A stretch of DNA of 64,000 nucleotides, taken from NCBI GenBank assembly GCA_017631885.1, contig JAGBSH010000017.1, positions 89,044-153,043 on the forward strand. Direction: 5' to 3'. This document shows positions 55,881 through 61,564 of this stretch, one piece after another. The translations under genes and the position numbers were made by a program. Each line of letters begins with the position of its first letter. Positions within the stretch are counted from its first letter, which is position 1. Under the pieces are notes generated by a model. The model saw only the letters and a list, made by a program, of their open reading frames with translations. It ran no database searches and had not been told where the DNA came from. Source of the DNA: Fibrobacteraceae bacterium. GTDB lineage: Bacteria > Fibrobacterota > Fibrobacteria > Fibrobacterales > Fibrobacteraceae.

Positions 55881-55995
55881 AATGTAAATATAAAGATTTT
55901 TTTTGCTTCTGTTCAAATAATAAGTGTATTTTAAGAAAAGAATGGATTGTATCACAAAAACATTCCTAAACAGAATTTTTCTTGGAGATTTTCAA

Positions 55996-56847
55996 ATGGC
56001 TATAGTTAAAAAGAGTTCAACCCAAAAAGTAGCTTCCAAAAAAGCAAAAGAACCTCAAATTGCTTATTTAGACAAACAATTCCTAGAAGGGGACGCAGGA
56101 CGACAAGTTCGTATCCTTTCTGAATTTTTAGCTCCTGGCGAGCGTTTTGCTAATGAAAAGATCCAGAATTCTATTGTATTCTTTGGTTCTGCCCGCACTC
56201 TTCCTATGGAAGAAATCAAAAAAAGAAAAAAATCTGTTAAAGGAAAAGAGCTTAAAAAATTACATGCTTTAGAAAACGTTGCTCAGTATTACAACGCGGC
56301 AAGAGATTTAGCAAGACAACTCGGTAAATGGTGTAATTCTCAACAAAATGGTTTTACTATTTGCACTGGAGGCGGACCTGGTATTATGGAAGCTGGCAAC
56401 CGTGGAGCAAATGACGTTGGGACACCTTCTACTGGATTAAACATCAAGTTACCTTTTGAGCAACACCCAAACCCTTATATTTCAGACGCATTGAATATGC
56501 AATTCAGATATTTCTTTATCCGTAAATTCTGGTTTTTGCATATTGCTCGCGCTCTTATTGTATTCCCTGGTGGCTTTGGGACATTAGATGAAATGTTTGA
56601 AGCGTTGACACTTATCCAAACAAGACGCTATTCAGAAAAAGTGCCTGTTGTTATTTTTGGAACCGAATTCTGGAAAAAACTGATTAACTGGGAATACCTT
56701 GTAGAAACAGGCATGATAAATAAAGAAGATTTGAACCTTTTCTTATTTACCGATTCTGTTGAAGAAGCTTATGAATACATCACAAATATTCTTGGTGAAC
56801 AAGAAAACCAATTAGAACGCGACCGGCGCTCATTTGGAGTGATTTAG
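55996..56847 (+). CDS. LOG-family (lysine-decarboxylase-like) protein
   Basis: A 283-aa Rossmann-fold protein of the LOG family, whose characterised members are cytokinin-activating or nucleotide 5'-monophosphate phosphoribohydrolases (also PpnN). Key motifs: NSIVFFGSARTLP, FTICTGGGPGIMEAGNRGAN, and the catalytic VFPGGFGTLDEMFEALTLIQ. A basic N-terminal ~25 residues (KKSSTQKVASKKAKE) precede the fold. The start is the ATG at 55996 with GGAG at 55984-55987; the longer frame to 55924 lacks a ribosome site. Nucleotide salvage is the best guess. Confidence 0.87.
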   Translation: MAIVKKSSTQKVASKKAKEPQIAYLDKQFLEGDAGRQVRILSEFLAPGERFANEKIQNSIVFFGSARTLPMEEIKKRKKSVKGKELKKLHALENVAQYYNAARDLARQLGKWCNSQQNGFTICTGGGPGIMEAGNRGANDVGTPSTGLNIKLPFEQHPNPYISDALNMQFRYFFIRKFWFLHIARALIVFPGGFGTLDEMFEALTLIQTRRYSEKVPVVIFGTEFWKKLINWEYLVETGMINKEDLNLFLFTDSVEEAYEYITNILGEQENQLERDRRSFGVI

Positions 56848-56919: not shown

Positions 56920-58023
56920 GTGATTAGGACATGGCTTTCAAATAAAATCGATCTTCTTTCTCGCAAGCTTGCCTTGCGAGAACATTGTTCATTAGAAGAG
57001 TACCAATATCTTTTTGATCAGAATCCAGAATTCTTACATAGTGGAGCTATAGAGCGCATCAAACTGCTCGAGCCAATTTCTATTGAAGGGACTAATGATT
57101 TGTTTAAAGCAAGGTATTGGATTGAACGACCTTCTGACGAAGCTAAATACAATGAAAAAGACATCGTTTTAAAAATCTGCAAATATTATGCTCCATCTGG
57201 AAAGAACAGAGTACATCGTCTAAATATGTTACTCAGTGCATTTCAAGACGAAATCAGAATAAACAACTTAATACGAGCCACCAATATTGAAGGCGTTGTA
57301 CAAAGTTTTGGTGGCGGTTTTGCTGGGCGTCATCCTTATTTTAAAATGGAATTTATTCGTGGCTGTTCTTTAGACCAAATGTTTAAAAAAGAACTGTCAG
57401 ACGAAGAAGTTTTTCAACGACTAGCCCAAATGGCTTATTTAGCCAATACAATCAGCCAGTTGCATTATTACCAGATAATTCATAAAGATTTAAAACCTAA
57501 AAATTTATTGCTTTGCCAAAACCCAGAGCACATCAACAACCATAAAATTTTAATCTGTGACTTTGGTTATGCACAAGCCAAATTAAGAGAAAGCGTAACA
57601 GAATACGGAGGAAAACTGACTCCTTGTTATAGCGCCCCAGAACAAGCTGTTATGGGAGAAAACCTTTCTCAATCTGTTGATTACTTTAGCTTTGGAATTA
57701 TTTTGCATGAATATTTAACTGGCGAGCAACTTTTCCCTAATGCGATGAAAATTTTTGTTGAAGATGGTTACCGCATTACAGAACGCTATTTAGAACATTT
57801 AAAAACAGGGAAACGCAACGTTTTTGAAAATGCTAATTTCCCAGAAGTCCGAAAGTGGATTGATGATTTAACCATTTTTGACAGCTTTGAAAGAATGCAA
57901 AAATGCGATAACTTGTTCAACATCGCTCACAAATTAAGAGAACGTATTAATTCTCTTGGATATAGAGATGTAAACACTGATTTCTTATGGAATCAATTAA
58001 GCGAATACCATTCAAAAAGTTGA
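56920..58023 (+). CDS. Hanks-type Ser/Thr protein kinase
   Basis: A 367-aa cytoplasmic kinase with no transmembrane helix of its own. Catalytic residues are complete: VLKICKYY (Lys85), AFQDEIRI (Glu111, helix C), IIHKDLKPKNLLL (Asp190, Asn195), ILICDFGYAQA (DFG, 214-216), and YSAPEQAV (APE, 239-241), followed by QSVDYFSFGIILHEYLTGEQ. The Gly-rich loop (EPISIEGTNDLFKARYW) is degenerate. The N-terminal ~45 residues precede the fold and may bind a partner. The start is a GTG at 56920; the ATG at 56931 is in another frame. A TATAAT at 56878-56883 is a likely -10. The next gene starts 2 bases after its stop, so they form a pair. Confidence 0.88.
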   Translation: MIRTWLSNKIDLLSRKLALREHCSLEEYQYLFDQNPEFLHSGAIERIKLLEPISIEGTNDLFKARYWIERPSDEAKYNEKDIVLKICKYYAPSGKNRVHRLNMLLSAFQDEIRINNLIRATNIEGVVQSFGGGFAGRHPYFKMEFIRGCSLDQMFKKELSDEEVFQRLAQMAYLANTISQLHYYQIIHKDLKPKNLLLCQNPEHINNHKILICDFGYAQAKLRESVTEYGGKLTPCYSAPEQAVMGENLSQSVDYFSFGIILHEYLTGEQLFPNAMKIFVEDGYRITERYLEHLKTGKRNVFENANFPEVRKWIDDLTIFDSFERMQKCDNLFNIAHKLRERINSLGYRDVNTDFLWNQLSEYHSKS

Positions 58024-58025
58024 TT

Positions 58026-59483
58026 ATGAAAATTTTAAATATCTTGCGACATTTTTTTAGTAATAGAGGATTTTCATTTTCGGCAATCCTTTGTCTTGCT
58101 TTAATTGTTTTAATAACACAATGCGTATTAGAATACGGGCCTTCCTGGAAAGAATCAAACCGCATTTCTAAACAAATATCGCTATTTAAAGATTATTGGG
58201 AAAAAGAAGGCGCACAAAAATTTCAATCCGTTGGTTTAGCACCAACTGAAGAACTTTATCAAGAAGAACTAAATGAATATTTAAAAAAATACAATGAAAA
58301 GACCCCAACTCTTGTTCCGGACAAACGCGTCCAAGAAATGAAACAAGAATTTCAAAAATGGTGGGAAACTGGTGGGAGTAGAAGTTTTGCTGTAAAAAAC
58401 ATAGTCCCAGACCAAAGACTTTATAAAAAAGAAGAAGCTAAACTACTTAAATCCTATACTGATACAAAAAATGTTTACCGCATTCGTTTAAATACTCAAG
58501 CCCCGGAGCCATCTCAAGTCTTTTTACATTGGTTACTTTTTCCAAATATTTGGATGTTCTTGATACAATTTGCCAGTTTACTTTTTATAGCCAAACTTAC
58601 TGAAGAACGTTTTGGAAAGTGGATCAATTTAGGGCTTCTTTTTTTAGCCACAATCCTTGGAGCAGTGTTATTACTTATTTTAAGTGGAACTTCTTTTTTT
58701 GCAAACAACACCTCATTCTACACAGGTTTCATGATTGGAGTTGCCCTTTTACTAGGTTCTATTTGCCAAAATAAAAATGGCTTTATCTCAGAGAAAAAAG
58801 TTATTGTTTTTGCTTCTTTGCTTTTATTTTTAAACCTTTTAATTACTTGGCTAACTTGTTCTCAAATTTATGTTGCCGCTATAATTCTTTCTCTTGTTTT
58901 CTTTGTAGGCGGTTCTTTCTTAGGGAAATATATGCCTCTTCCTAAAAAAAGTAAAAAGGAAATAGAAAAAGAAAAACGTTTACAAAAAGCTAAAGAACCT
59001 AAACAAAACTTTCAAGAAGTCCGGAAAAAGAAAACGCGCGCCATGCTTGATGAAGGCTTTTCTTGCGCTATGCGCGGCGATTTCGCTTTAGCTGGAAAAT
59101 TTTTAACTGATGCAATGCATGCTCTTTTACTAGAATCCGATGTCGATTCTGAAACGTTGAACGATATTGCTAAAAAAATCACCAACCCTTCGCTTTATAT
59201 TGAAGTTACTAATACCCAATGGCAAGAATGGGGAACAAGCGCTTATCAAAAAAAGCATTACGAAGCAGCTTTGTTGTTACTTGAAAAATCTCTCATTTCT
59301 GAAAAAGATGAAAAAATGGCTCGCAAAGCGCTTTTCACCATTGGGGAAATTCGCGTTTCTCAGAACTTGAATCCAGAAGAAGGGATTAAACGCCTTCAAA
59401 AAGTTTTAGAATTAAATGATTCAGATATTTTTGCCTTGCAAGCGAAAAAACTATTACAAAAATTTTCTAACCATTCACCCTAG
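58026..59483 (+). CDS. Pseudo-rhomboid membrane protein with TPR tail, kinase partner
   Basis: A 485-aa inner-membrane protein. TM1 (residues ~17-36) leads to an ectodomain with two copies of a ~38-residue unit: 52-90 (FKDYWEKEGAQKFQSVGLAP, then LYQEELNEYLKKY) and 109-146 (FQKWWETGGSRSFAVKNIVP, then LYKKEEAKLLKSY). Residues ~168-320 form six helices with a rhomboid-like pattern (FLHWLLFPNIWMFLIQ, KLTEERFGKW), but the catalytic GxSG is replaced by NTSFYTGFMIG, so proteolysis is unlikely. The cytoplasmic end (~345-480) is helical TPR-like (GFSCAMRGDFALAGKFL, QKKHYEAALLLLEKSLI). The ATG follows the kinase stop by 2 bases. Its TPRs are candidate kinase docking or substrate sites. Confidence 0.75.
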   Translation: MKILNILRHFFSNRGFSFSAILCLALIVLITQCVLEYGPSWKESNRISKQISLFKDYWEKEGAQKFQSVGLAPTEELYQEELNEYLKKYNEKTPTLVPDKRVQEMKQEFQKWWETGGSRSFAVKNIVPDQRLYKKEEAKLLKSYTDTKNVYRIRLNTQAPEPSQVFLHWLLFPNIWMFLIQFASLLFIAKLTEERFGKWINLGLLFLATILGAVLLLILSGTSFFANNTSFYTGFMIGVALLLGSICQNKNGFISEKKVIVFASLLLFLNLLITWLTCSQIYVAAIILSLVFFVGGSFLGKYMPLPKKSKKEIEKEKRLQKAKEPKQNFQEVRKKKTRAMLDEGFSCAMRGDFALAGKFLTDAMHALLLESDVDSETLNDIAKKITNPSLYIEVTNTQWQEWGTSAYQKKHYEAALLLLEKSLISEKDEKMARKALFTIGEIRVSQNLNPEEGIKRLQKVLELNDSDIFALQAKKLLQKFSNHSP

Positions 59484-60545
59484 TGAAATAACATCATCTG
59501 GTGAAAATGGTAAATCGTCAACTTGTGGCGTAGCCACAAATACTTGACATTTCTTTTCACGAATTAATTCAGAAACCGCTATGCGTCGATTAGAATCTAG
59601 TTCAGCTAAAATATCATCTAACAATAAAATCGGTAAAAGATTTGTTGAATTCGCAATATCAATTGCAGAAAGGCGCATAGCTATGGCGGCTGATCGACAT
59701 TGACCTTGAGAACCAATGGGCCGCATTTCATAATCAGAAAGCCAAAGGATAAAATCATCTTTATGCGGGCCAACAAGAGTTATCCCTAAACGGCGTTCCG
59801 ATTCTTCATTTTTTTCAAGTAATTCAAAAAATTTTTCTTCTATTGAATCTATTTCTGAAACTGCCGAACGATAAGAACAATGTACTTTATCTTGACCATT
59901 TGAAAGTCTATCATAATATTCGGGAATAAGTTCTGATAACCTTTTAGCCAACAAAAAACGTTCTTTCCAAAGAGCAGCCCCTAAAGAAACCAATTGTTGA
60001 GAAAGCACAACAAAAACATCTTCCCCACCAATCGCTTTACCTTGTTTAAAACCATGTAACCATTCATTTCTTTGTGAAAGAACCCTTCGATAACGGCGCA
60101 AAAGGTTTGCATTTTTATCTGATTGGAAACAAAGAATTTCATCTAGCCAACGGCGACGTATTTCTGGTGCGCCTCGCACAAGTTCAATATCTGATGGTTG
60201 CATCATCACTGCAGGAAACGTTCCAAAAAATGACGCTAACGAGCGACAAAGTTCTCCATCTTTTTTTATTGTCAACGAATCTTTTGCGATACGTAATGCA
60301 CGCGTTGAAGATGTTGTTAGTCCTGACAATTCTGCTCGTAAAATGCTTTCTTGTTTTTCCCAAGAAATCAAACTTTTCAAATCCCTTGTTCTGAAAGAAA
60401 ATCCCTGACTCATCAAAAAAATAGATTCTAGCAAAGAAGTTTTTCCACACCCATTATGCCCGCAAAAAACGGTTATCCCAGGAGAAAAATTTCTCTCCTG
60501 TAAAGGTAATGCTCTAACGCCATCTAGAAAAATTTTTTCTATCAA
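59475..60545 (-). CDS. recF: DNA replication and repair protein RecF
   Basis: SMC-like ATPase that helps load RecA on gapped DNA. The 356-aa product has Walker A (TVFCGHNGCGKTSLLESIF), GTFPAVMMQPSDIELVRGAPEIRRRWLD-type segment (~residue 100-125), the signature GSQGQCRSAAIAMRLS, and Walker B PILLLDDILAELDSNRR. The start is the TTG at 60545, which overlaps the upstream stop (TTGA) with GAGAGG nine bases before it; the open frame continues to 60584 over the PorV-like gene. It is far from dnaA/dnaN, its usual neighbours. Its 3' end overlaps the convergent gene by 9 bases. Confidence 0.93.
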   Translation of the reverse strand: MIEKIFLDGVRALPLQERNFSPGITVFCGHNGCGKTSLLESIFLMSQGFSFRTRDLKSLISWEKQESILRAELSGLTTSSTRALRIAKDSLTIKKDGELCRSLASFFGTFPAVMMQPSDIELVRGAPEIRRRWLDEILCFQSDKNANLLRRYRRVLSQRNEWLHGFKQGKAIGGEDVFVVLSQQLVSLGAALWKERFLLAKRLSELIPEYYDRLSNGQDKVHCSYRSAVSEIDSIEEKFFELLEKNEESERRLGITLVGPHKDDFILWLSDYEMRPIGSQGQCRSAAIAMRLSAIDIANSTNLLPILLLDDILAELDSNRRIAVSELIREKKCQVFVATPQVDDLPFSPDDVISLG

Positions 60546-61564
60546 GGAATATAACCTCTCAAGGCAAAGCTCAATGGATTCCAAAGGTCAGCTTCGGATT
60601 CATAGACTAATGCGTAATTCACTTCAAATGGCCATTTCTTTTTTCCTATCCGAATATCGAATGCATAACCTAAGCCAGCCGTAAAATTTTCTCCATCTAT
60701 GCCCACACGCAACATACCTTTTGGAATCACTTCATATTCAGCACCTAAACGAGCTGTCCAATAATGCGCATCTGGGTCAAATGCTAAAAATACTTCTGAT
60801 AGTTGATAATCTAAAGCTTCAAGCCAAAGAGCTGCTGAACGGCCAAATAAAACAGAACGATACCCTAAACCAACTTGTAATGTTTTAGGCCTTACTCCTT
60901 CTGTCGACTCAAGAGAATTATCACCACTTGTCGTTTTTGTCCAACGCGCTGTTAAATTTTCATCAAAACTCAAATTGCGCACAACAACTGAAAAAGACCA
61001 TTTAGCATTTAATTGCCTGACAAAACCTATGTTAAATGTTAATGGACTACGATAACCATCTTCTACATCAATATCATCATAATATTTTGAAATGCCTAGA
61101 TTATCATAACTCATTGATAACGAAATCCCAAGAGCATCTCGGCGAGTTAAACGATACGAAAAACCAAGATACATCATTGAGAAAAATGGGGCCGCGTTTC
61201 CTAATGTTTTATCATCTTCATCAATCACTTCAAAATCCCAATCACCGCGATACAAAACGGCAGCGCCTATCCCCATTCGCGAACCAATTTTCCCTTCTAT
61301 GCCTAAAGAACCACCCGCTCTATCTAAATCTCGTTTTTCAGCATGCAATGAATAAGCAATGTTTTTTCTAAAAGCTAGTAATGCAGGGTTCCAATAAGCT
61401 CCTGGCATAGCTAAAGTATCAGCAGAACCAGTATTTCCTCGCCCAAGTTCCCGGGCTGAAGCCCCCATGCGTTCCACAAAGCCATCAAAGCCACCAAGAC
61501 GCGCTTCTTTAGAAGCTTGGACAAAACTTAAAAGCAAGAGCACTAAGAGAATAATCTTTTGCAT
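60542..61564 (-). CDS. PorV/PorQ-like outer-membrane beta-barrel protein
   Basis: A 340-aa outer-membrane protein with a signal peptide (MQKIILLVLLLLSFVQAS). The mature N-terminus ERMGASARELGRGNTGSADT and PGAYWNPALLAF is the typical PorV/PorQ (UPF0164) start, followed by about 14 alternating amphipathic strands (GIGAAVLYRGDWDFEVID, MYLGFSYRLTRRDALGISLS, TLQVGLGYRSVLFGRSAA) to the final LSFALRGYIP. PorV is the shuttle of the type IX secretion system in Bacteroidetes. It starts at the stop of the FlgD-Ig gene (TAATG) and is coupled to recF downstream. Confidence 0.83.
   Translation of the reverse strand: MQKIILLVLLLLSFVQASKEARLGGFDGFVERMGASARELGRGNTGSADTLAMPGAYWNPALLAFRKNIAYSLHAEKRDLDRAGGSLGIEGKIGSRMGIGAAVLYRGDWDFEVIDEDDKTLGNAAPFFSMMYLGFSYRLTRRDALGISLSMSYDNLGISKYYDDIDVEDGYRSPLTFNIGFVRQLNAKWSFSVVVRNLSFDENLTARWTKTTSGDNSLESTEGVRPKTLQVGLGYRSVLFGRSAALWLEALDYQLSEVFLAFDPDAHYWTARLGAEYEVIPKGMLRVGIDGENFTAGLGYAFDIRIGKKKWPFEVNYALVYESEADLWNPLSFALRGYIP

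Follow-up and report, generated by a model that had tools for sequence, protein, structure and literature searches.

A Fibrobacteraceae gene block combining a LOG-family protein, a Hanks-type kinase and a rhomboid-like membrane protein that lacks the catalytic dyad

Rhomboid pseudoproteases are known mainly from eukaryotes. In the animal iRhoms, as described in PMC6451368, the catalytic GxS is replaced by GPx, and the IRHD, a domain of about 230 residues with 16 conserved cysteines, lies in the loop between the first and second transmembrane helices (TM1 and TM2). The pseudoprotease role on record for bacteria, in PMC7231995, is that of an active enzyme, YqgP (GluP) of Bacillus subtilis, a rhomboid with tetratricopeptide repeats (TPRs) that acts both as a protease and as an adaptor (pseudoprotease). 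According to the same paper, YqgP is an active protease (S288) with an extracellular TPR domain and a cytosolic, N-terminal metal-binding domain. The eukaryote-centred view of pseudoproteases is in line with PMC7231995, PMC6451368 and PMC12615303. The DNA analysed here (the window) is a stretch of 64,000 nucleotides from a Fibrobacteraceae bacterium (assembly GCA_017631885.1, 2.37 Mb; contig JAGBSH010000017.1, positions 89,044 to 153,043 of the forward strand). It encodes a membrane protein with a predicted rhomboid core and no Ser-His dyad, an apparent bacterial parallel to the iRhom regulators of animals. Its gene belongs to a conserved unit of LOG, kinase and pseudo-rhomboid genes, the kinase being the part that is lost in some lineages. 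Among the titles listed for Fibrobacter rhomboids and kinases, bacterial inactive rhomboids, and links between rhomboids and kinases or TPRs, none was recognised as describing such a system. The three genes are as follows.

55996 to 56847, + strand: LOG-family protein matching TIGR00730 and PF03641, assigned to the block as its third component from these models and gene order.
56920 to 58023, + strand: Hanks-type Ser/Thr protein kinase, 367 residues (PF00069, E 1e-24; catalytic residues invariant).
58026 to 59483, + strand: pseudo-rhomboid with an ectodomain in loop L1 (TM1-TM2) and a TPR tail, 485 residues (alignment, AlphaFold model, GlpG match and family search).

The kinase and membrane protein genes are separated by two bases, with coordinates and lengths as given in the original prediction, which had been drawn from the letters of the window and had described these two genes as a unit. 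The membrane protein can be divided into the parts below.

58029 to 58229, + strand: TM1, continuous with the first helix of ectodomain repeat 1 as a single helix spanning residues 2-68 (DSSP assignment in the AlphaFold model).
58185 to 58295, + strand: ectodomain repeat 1, residues 54-90, helix-turn-helix (alignment, hhalign, model).
58350 to 58466, + strand: ectodomain repeat 2, residues 109-147, helix-turn-helix (alignment, hhalign, model).
58503 to 58940, + strand: rhomboid core TM2 to TM6, residues 160-305 (GlpG match over the model range 13-305; sub-threshold PF01694 in relatives).
58731 to 58733, + strand: residue 236, where TM4 starts, treated here as the catalytic serine site (Met in the window, Ser in 43 of 47 rows).
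58866 to 58931, + strand: TM6, covering residues 281-302 and including G296 and G300 (His absent from 281-301 in all 47 rows).
58941 to 59009, + strand: Lys-rich linker after TM6, residues 306-328 (charge count).
59010 to 59474, + strand: TPR-like tail, residues 329-483, modelled as eight helices (AlphaFold model, structure matches).

The AlphaFold model of the membrane protein, built from 47 sequences, has a mean predicted local distance difference test score (pLDDT) of 87.8. When 984 chains were re-aligned to it, GlpG of E. coli came first, with Z 15.2, a root-mean-square deviation of 3.4 and 170 of 179 residues aligned over model residues 13-305. The helix pattern that the original prediction called rhomboid-like corresponds to a rhomboid core present in the model, and a GlpG-like six-helix fold is well supported by the prediction, though not proven. 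Weak Pfam matches agree with the structure match on a rhomboid relation. PF01694 is found in eight of the 47 family members (best E 0.023), and the orthologue in genome G021 reaches 21.7 bits against a cut-off of 22.6 (E 1e-3). Over the same region the G021 protein also matches, below cut-off, PF08551 (E 9e-4), a TMEM115-type family which we take to be a rhomboid relative. The window protein shares the predicted six-helix core with GlpG and differs from it by the absence of GxSG and of the TM6 histidine and by the addition of the L1 domain and the TPR tail.

The active site was compared in an alignment of 47 membrane protein rows (A2), made up of the window and 46 of 57 relative loci, all 57 of which fall under Fibrobacter or its higher groups. 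Left out were L148 (frameshift), L131 (contig start) and L138 (match beginning at residue 75) and, by choice, L110, L111, L114, L117, L119, L121, L136 and L144. Where GxSG is expected, the window protein reads G234-F-M-I. G234 is invariant in all 47 rows. The three rows of the window's genus (window, L095, L096) have Met, Ala and Phe at position 236; it is Thr in L104 and Ser in the other 43 rows. None of the 47 rows has GxSG, as predicted for the window, and none has Gly at 237; the prediction had missed that the serine of GxS is kept in most relatives. No histidine occurs at residues 281-301 of TM6 in any row. Placed by the motif F293-x-x-G296-x-x-x-G300, the histidine position is Phe in 45 of 47 rows; placed by the end-points of the structure alignment it is residue 289, which is Ser in 39 of 47. 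By sequence the Ser-His dyad is absent whichever alignment of TM6 is used, and an intact dyad elsewhere in the helices was looked for and not found. The histidine was probably lost before the serine, because the serine persists in most rows. By these residues the window family falls outside the active rhomboid proteases (S54).

It is very improbable that most relatives still cut, using Ser236 with another base such as His227 in loop L3, and that the window's genus alone is dead. Such activity would account for the retention of Ser236 and G234, and His227, nine residues before position 236, is present in 30 of the 47 rows (Asn in the window), in which it could conceivably serve as an alternative base. 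Yet no row combines the serine with a following Gly or has a histidine at 281-301, and 17 rows lack His227, a residue located ahead of TM4 and outside TM6.

The loop between TM1 and TM2 carries, in the model, about 105 residues (48-153) with two repeats. Aligned with hhalign, repeat 1 and repeat 2 score 49.5 (E 4e-11), against no more than 19.1 when the columns were shuffled 200 times; by sequence, they are a real duplication, and the family alignment agrees with the boundaries first proposed for them (52-90 and 109-146). A profile of the repeat, the search suggested in the original prediction, was run against 60 genomes. At E <=0.01 it gave 49 matches in 25 genomes, all to this gene, and among PDB entries it found no meaningful relative (best E 0.87). 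Two divergent homologues from genomes G007 and G012, found at L027 (1492-2751, - strand) and L028 (1390-2640, + strand), apparently have one repeat. This single repeat is read from the alignment, since the repeat profile finds none in G007 and G012; if it is real, the duplication arose with the main form. Both divergent genes adjoin an rsmA/ksgA-like gene (named from sequence), 14-17 kb from the LOG-kinase pair. In L004 (= L096) the orthologue has some 80-90 additional C-terminal residues beyond the TPR tail, and in L148 the membrane gene (224-1569) is frameshifted about two thirds along, either by a genuine break or by a sequencing error.

The likeness to iRhom1 and iRhom2 lies in the dead rhomboid core, in the additional domain that the TM1-TM2 loop carries on the outer side, and in a regulatory part predicted to be cytoplasmic. 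There are also differences. None of the 47 rows has GP; residues 41-170 of the window protein contain no cysteine, and its loop holds two alpha-hairpin repeats; the predicted cytoplasmic domain of the family is a C-terminal TPR tail, while that of iRhoms is a long N-terminus. Here the family is placed among the rhomboid pseudoproteases, its L1 insertion occupying the iRhom site; by sequence it is not classed as an iRhom. With YqgP the window protein shares being a bacterial rhomboid with TPRs; in contrast to YqgP, its TPR tail is predicted to lie inside and the dyad is absent. Structure matches, both from Foldseek and after re-alignment, agree with the original description of the tail (329-485) as TPR-like. 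The first 17 residues of the protein carry three positive and no negative charges, and residues 302-330 contain ten Lys/Arg vs four Asp/Glu, but the outer loop is also charged, with 23 positive and 19 negative residues. The charges and the topology of GlpG suggest that both termini may be inside, which would make the TPR tail cytoplasmic, as first described, and the ectodomain periplasmic.

By sequence, the kinase is a complete Hanks-type enzyme, as first described. It matches PF00069 with 87.8 bits (cut-off 31.7) and carries the Lys, Glu, HxD, DFG, PE of APE and F-helix Asp of this group: K85, E111, H188-K-D190, N195, D214-F-G216, P240-E241 and D254 are identical in all 32 rows of the kinase alignment A4 (29 of 49 kinase-bearing loci plus the window, L055 and L056). 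Two further alignments, A5 and A6, are chosen subsets of 26 and 32 rows. By eye, no predictor having been run, no transmembrane helix is evident in the kinase. The kinase is unusually strongly conserved: its mean column identity is 82% vs 54% in the membrane protein, the two values coming from different row sets. Orthologues are 63-89% identical and, among the 60 relatives searched, occur only inside the Fibrobacteraceae; the 23 genomes outside the family have none, the best match there being 34% over 167 residues. The catalytic motifs are those of Hanks-type kinases of solved structure. The best PDB sequence matches are human RSK2 (1.3e-16) and ULK1 (3e-14), the bacterial StkP (3e-12) and PknB (5.5e-12) ranking below them. 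The window kinase differs from all of these in its own conserved N-terminal stretch and C-terminal tail, which lie outside the matched region 107-284. The tail is a candidate docking segment.

57958 to 58008, + strand: C-terminal kinase tail, residues 347-363, nearly invariant (kinase alignment).

G347, D350, N352 to L360, E362 and Y363 of this tail are invariant in the 32 rows. The conserved N-terminal stretch is encoded at 56920-56976 of the window. Its residues 2-18 are helical in a structure model that was poor (pLDDT 60.4) and was left uninterpreted, and they are somewhat amphipathic, with a moment of 0.38-0.58 across eight rows, but the window's stretch ranks only 35 of 349 segments.

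The distribution of the block was counted in 111 Fibrobacteraceae genomes, among them that of the window. The membrane protein occurs in 97 of the 111, 95 at E 4e-118 or better and G012 at 1.7e-37; the count excludes eight of 104 matches that cover the TPR end alone and adds G007 from other searches. In the 23 genomes outside the family there is one match, to the TPR end alone (G059). The kinase is present in 89 genomes, and all 89 also have the membrane protein (in G007 and G012 in its divergent form). The 12 genomes of genus g5 gave neither protein, nor did G009 and G094 (the latter 65% complete). The LOG gene, present in 106 of the 111 genomes, is accordingly broader than the kinase-membrane pair. 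In 83 of the 89 genomes the kinase and membrane genes are adjacent; in G010 they are on different contigs, the membrane gene starting at the first base of its contig. Of the 57 loci of named relatives, 48 have the kinase immediately upstream of the membrane gene, and the L131 locus starts at a contig start. For the eight loci L105, L106, L107, L112, L118, L124, L128 and L147, a kinase orthologue occurs elsewhere in two genomes (those of L105 and L107, in L107 about 9.6 kb off on the opposite strand), and in the remaining six the best matches are distant kinases of 33-34% identity. Separation in relatives is occasional, then, and not frequent.

The most constant neighbour of the kinase is the upstream LOG gene. 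In 86 of the 89 kinase-bearing genomes it immediately precedes the kinase, which in the other three (G004, G019, G117) is at or near contig ends, and in seven of the eight genomes that lack the kinase it immediately precedes the membrane gene; in G140 no LOG gene was found. These counts exclude 11 short LOG matches (from genera without the kinase) and the second copy in G019. In the genomes examined LOG and kinase are never apart on one contig. The two-gene unit of the original prediction is in this sense incomplete: the pairing is regular, and the LOG gene of the same conserved block was missed. Since promoter and terminator scans do not rise above shuffles, an operon is inferred from gene order alone. 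That the three genes are neighbours by history only, with no shared function, is unlikely. A purely historical link would sit well with the eight genomes that have the membrane protein without the kinase and the five in which the pair is split, and none of three well-kept cytoplasmic Ser/Thr positions of the membrane protein is lost in all kinase-less rows. It is at odds with the kinase not being found without the membrane protein while further neighbours of the block change between genera, and with the near-constant position of LOG upstream of the kinase.

The eight kinase-less genomes (G076, G081, G096, G103, G118, G125, G126 and G140) are 71-99% complete. G126 and G140 are taken to belong here because neither has a kinase row, and the membrane gene of G140 is in three pieces. 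Six kinase-less rows were aligned and form two clades of four (clade 1) and two (clade 2) rows, from which one or two losses of the kinase may be read. All 25 conserved columns of the ectodomain are kept in these six rows. Of 33 conserved TPR columns, one is lost in clade 1, six in clade 2 and one, K459, in both; for 23 conserved columns of TM2 to TM6 the corresponding numbers are one, three and one. Among the three cytoplasmic Ser/Thr positions found in >=70% of kinase-bearing rows, two are kept in all six kinase-less rows and T337 in four. Both clades share the changes of K459 to Gln and N278 to Tyr (A2 columns), which could reflect either a common ancestor or the trace of a lost partner. 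TPR distances in the eight between-clade kinase-less pairs are 0.47-0.49 vs 0.38-0.43 in matched kinase-bearing pairs. They lie 0.5-1.2 standard deviations above the matched pairs; the eight pairs are not independent of one another, and close pairs are not raised. Because kinase-less rows keep the ectodomain and most TPR columns, the membrane protein seems functional without the kinase, and docking of the kinase is one possible role of it among several.

The original prediction had proposed a dedicated envelope sensor. In the form weighed here, a ligand would be bound by the repeats, the signal would pass through the pseudo-rhomboid, and the TPR tail would keep hold of the kinase and switch it. 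The anatomy and the pairing on which it was built remain supported, and several features would suit it: the topology suggested by the N-terminal positive charges and the Lys-rich linker, the single helix formed by TM1 and repeat 1 in the model, the adjacency in 83 of 89 genomes, a near-invariant kinase tail that could sit in the TPR groove, and the slight excess of TPR change in kinase-less rows. The proposal is weakened by the membrane protein occurring without a kinase orthologue in eight of 97 genomes, where it keeps all conserved ectodomain columns and most TPR columns, and a protein dedicated to the kinase in this way is rather unlikely.

The reading preferred here, held tentatively and at somewhat less than even confidence, is a lineage-restricted block of LOG, a soluble Hanks-type kinase and a dead rhomboid, in which the pseudo-rhomboid would act as a membrane scaffold. 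The scaffold role is proposed by analogy with iRhoms, with Derlins and with YqgP in its adaptor function. A transmembrane client would be bound by the dead rhomboid core. On the outside, the ectorepeats, which one helix joins to TM1 in the model, would sense either a ligand in the envelope or the client's outer part, and cytosolic partners would be brought in by the TPR tail. As an added regulator, the kinase would phosphorylate the client, the LOG enzyme or the cytoplasmic side of the pseudo-rhomboid. The membrane protein does not exist for the kinase alone, because some lineages have it without the kinase. Any sensing and docking by the pseudo-rhomboid would follow from these analogies.

Several observations weigh against this reading. 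GlpG is absent from the 50 plain Foldseek matches listed, which are filled by TPR and other helical entries (best E 3.3e-3). The family profile, whole or core only, gives no match to canonical Fibrobacteraceae rhomboids, and the core profile searched against PDB sequences finds GABA receptor chains alone (E about 0.9) and no GlpG. Since these profile comparisons found nothing, the rhomboid assignment stands mainly on the predicted model, whose predicted template modelling score of 0.57 leaves the arrangement of its domains unsure. The window protein has no Pfam match above cut-off, PF01694 included, and other weak matches in the family point elsewhere, such as PF20990 in 19 of the 47 members (best E 9e-4, below cut-off). 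On the side of the block, the kinase and membrane genes lie apart in G007, G012, G070, G092 and G120, which fits a looser link. The six TPR columns lost in kinase-less clade 2 are a weak hint that the TPR tail did serve the kinase, and the raised between-clade TPR distances are a similarly weak hint of relaxation and not evidence of it.

A bolder form of the scaffold reading, an independently evolved iRhom-like hub in which the dead rhomboid is switched by its dedicated kinase and links the state of the envelope to the LOG enzyme, is quite unlikely. A dyad-free bacterial family with a loop domain at the iRhom site and a linked kinase would offer an independent case of the use of a dead rhomboid core, and the natural kinase-less lineages provide a ready comparison set.

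The LOG protein of the window, whose open frame begins at 55924 and for which the ATG at 55996 was chosen as start, matches PF03641 (E 6e-29) and the phosphoribohydrolase family TIGR00730 (99.1 bits, cut-off 96.35). Among solved LOG proteins it matches 5wq3 (1.3e-44). Against the CtkRMPhLog equivalog model it lies far below the cut-off (37.6 vs 300 bits). In genomes with the membrane protein the LOG match starts at residue 4-22 (cut in G010), and at about residue 96 in genus g5 and G009. The N-terminal part of LOG, its first 95 residues or so, may be tied to the kinase-pseudorhomboid block.

Long open frames in L011/L125 and antisense open reading frames look like frame artefacts and were set aside. 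Downstream, convergent to the block on the - strand, the region 59475-61564 holds a PorV/PorQ-like gene (below its cut-off) and a recF gene (TIGR00611, 281.7 bits, above cut-off).

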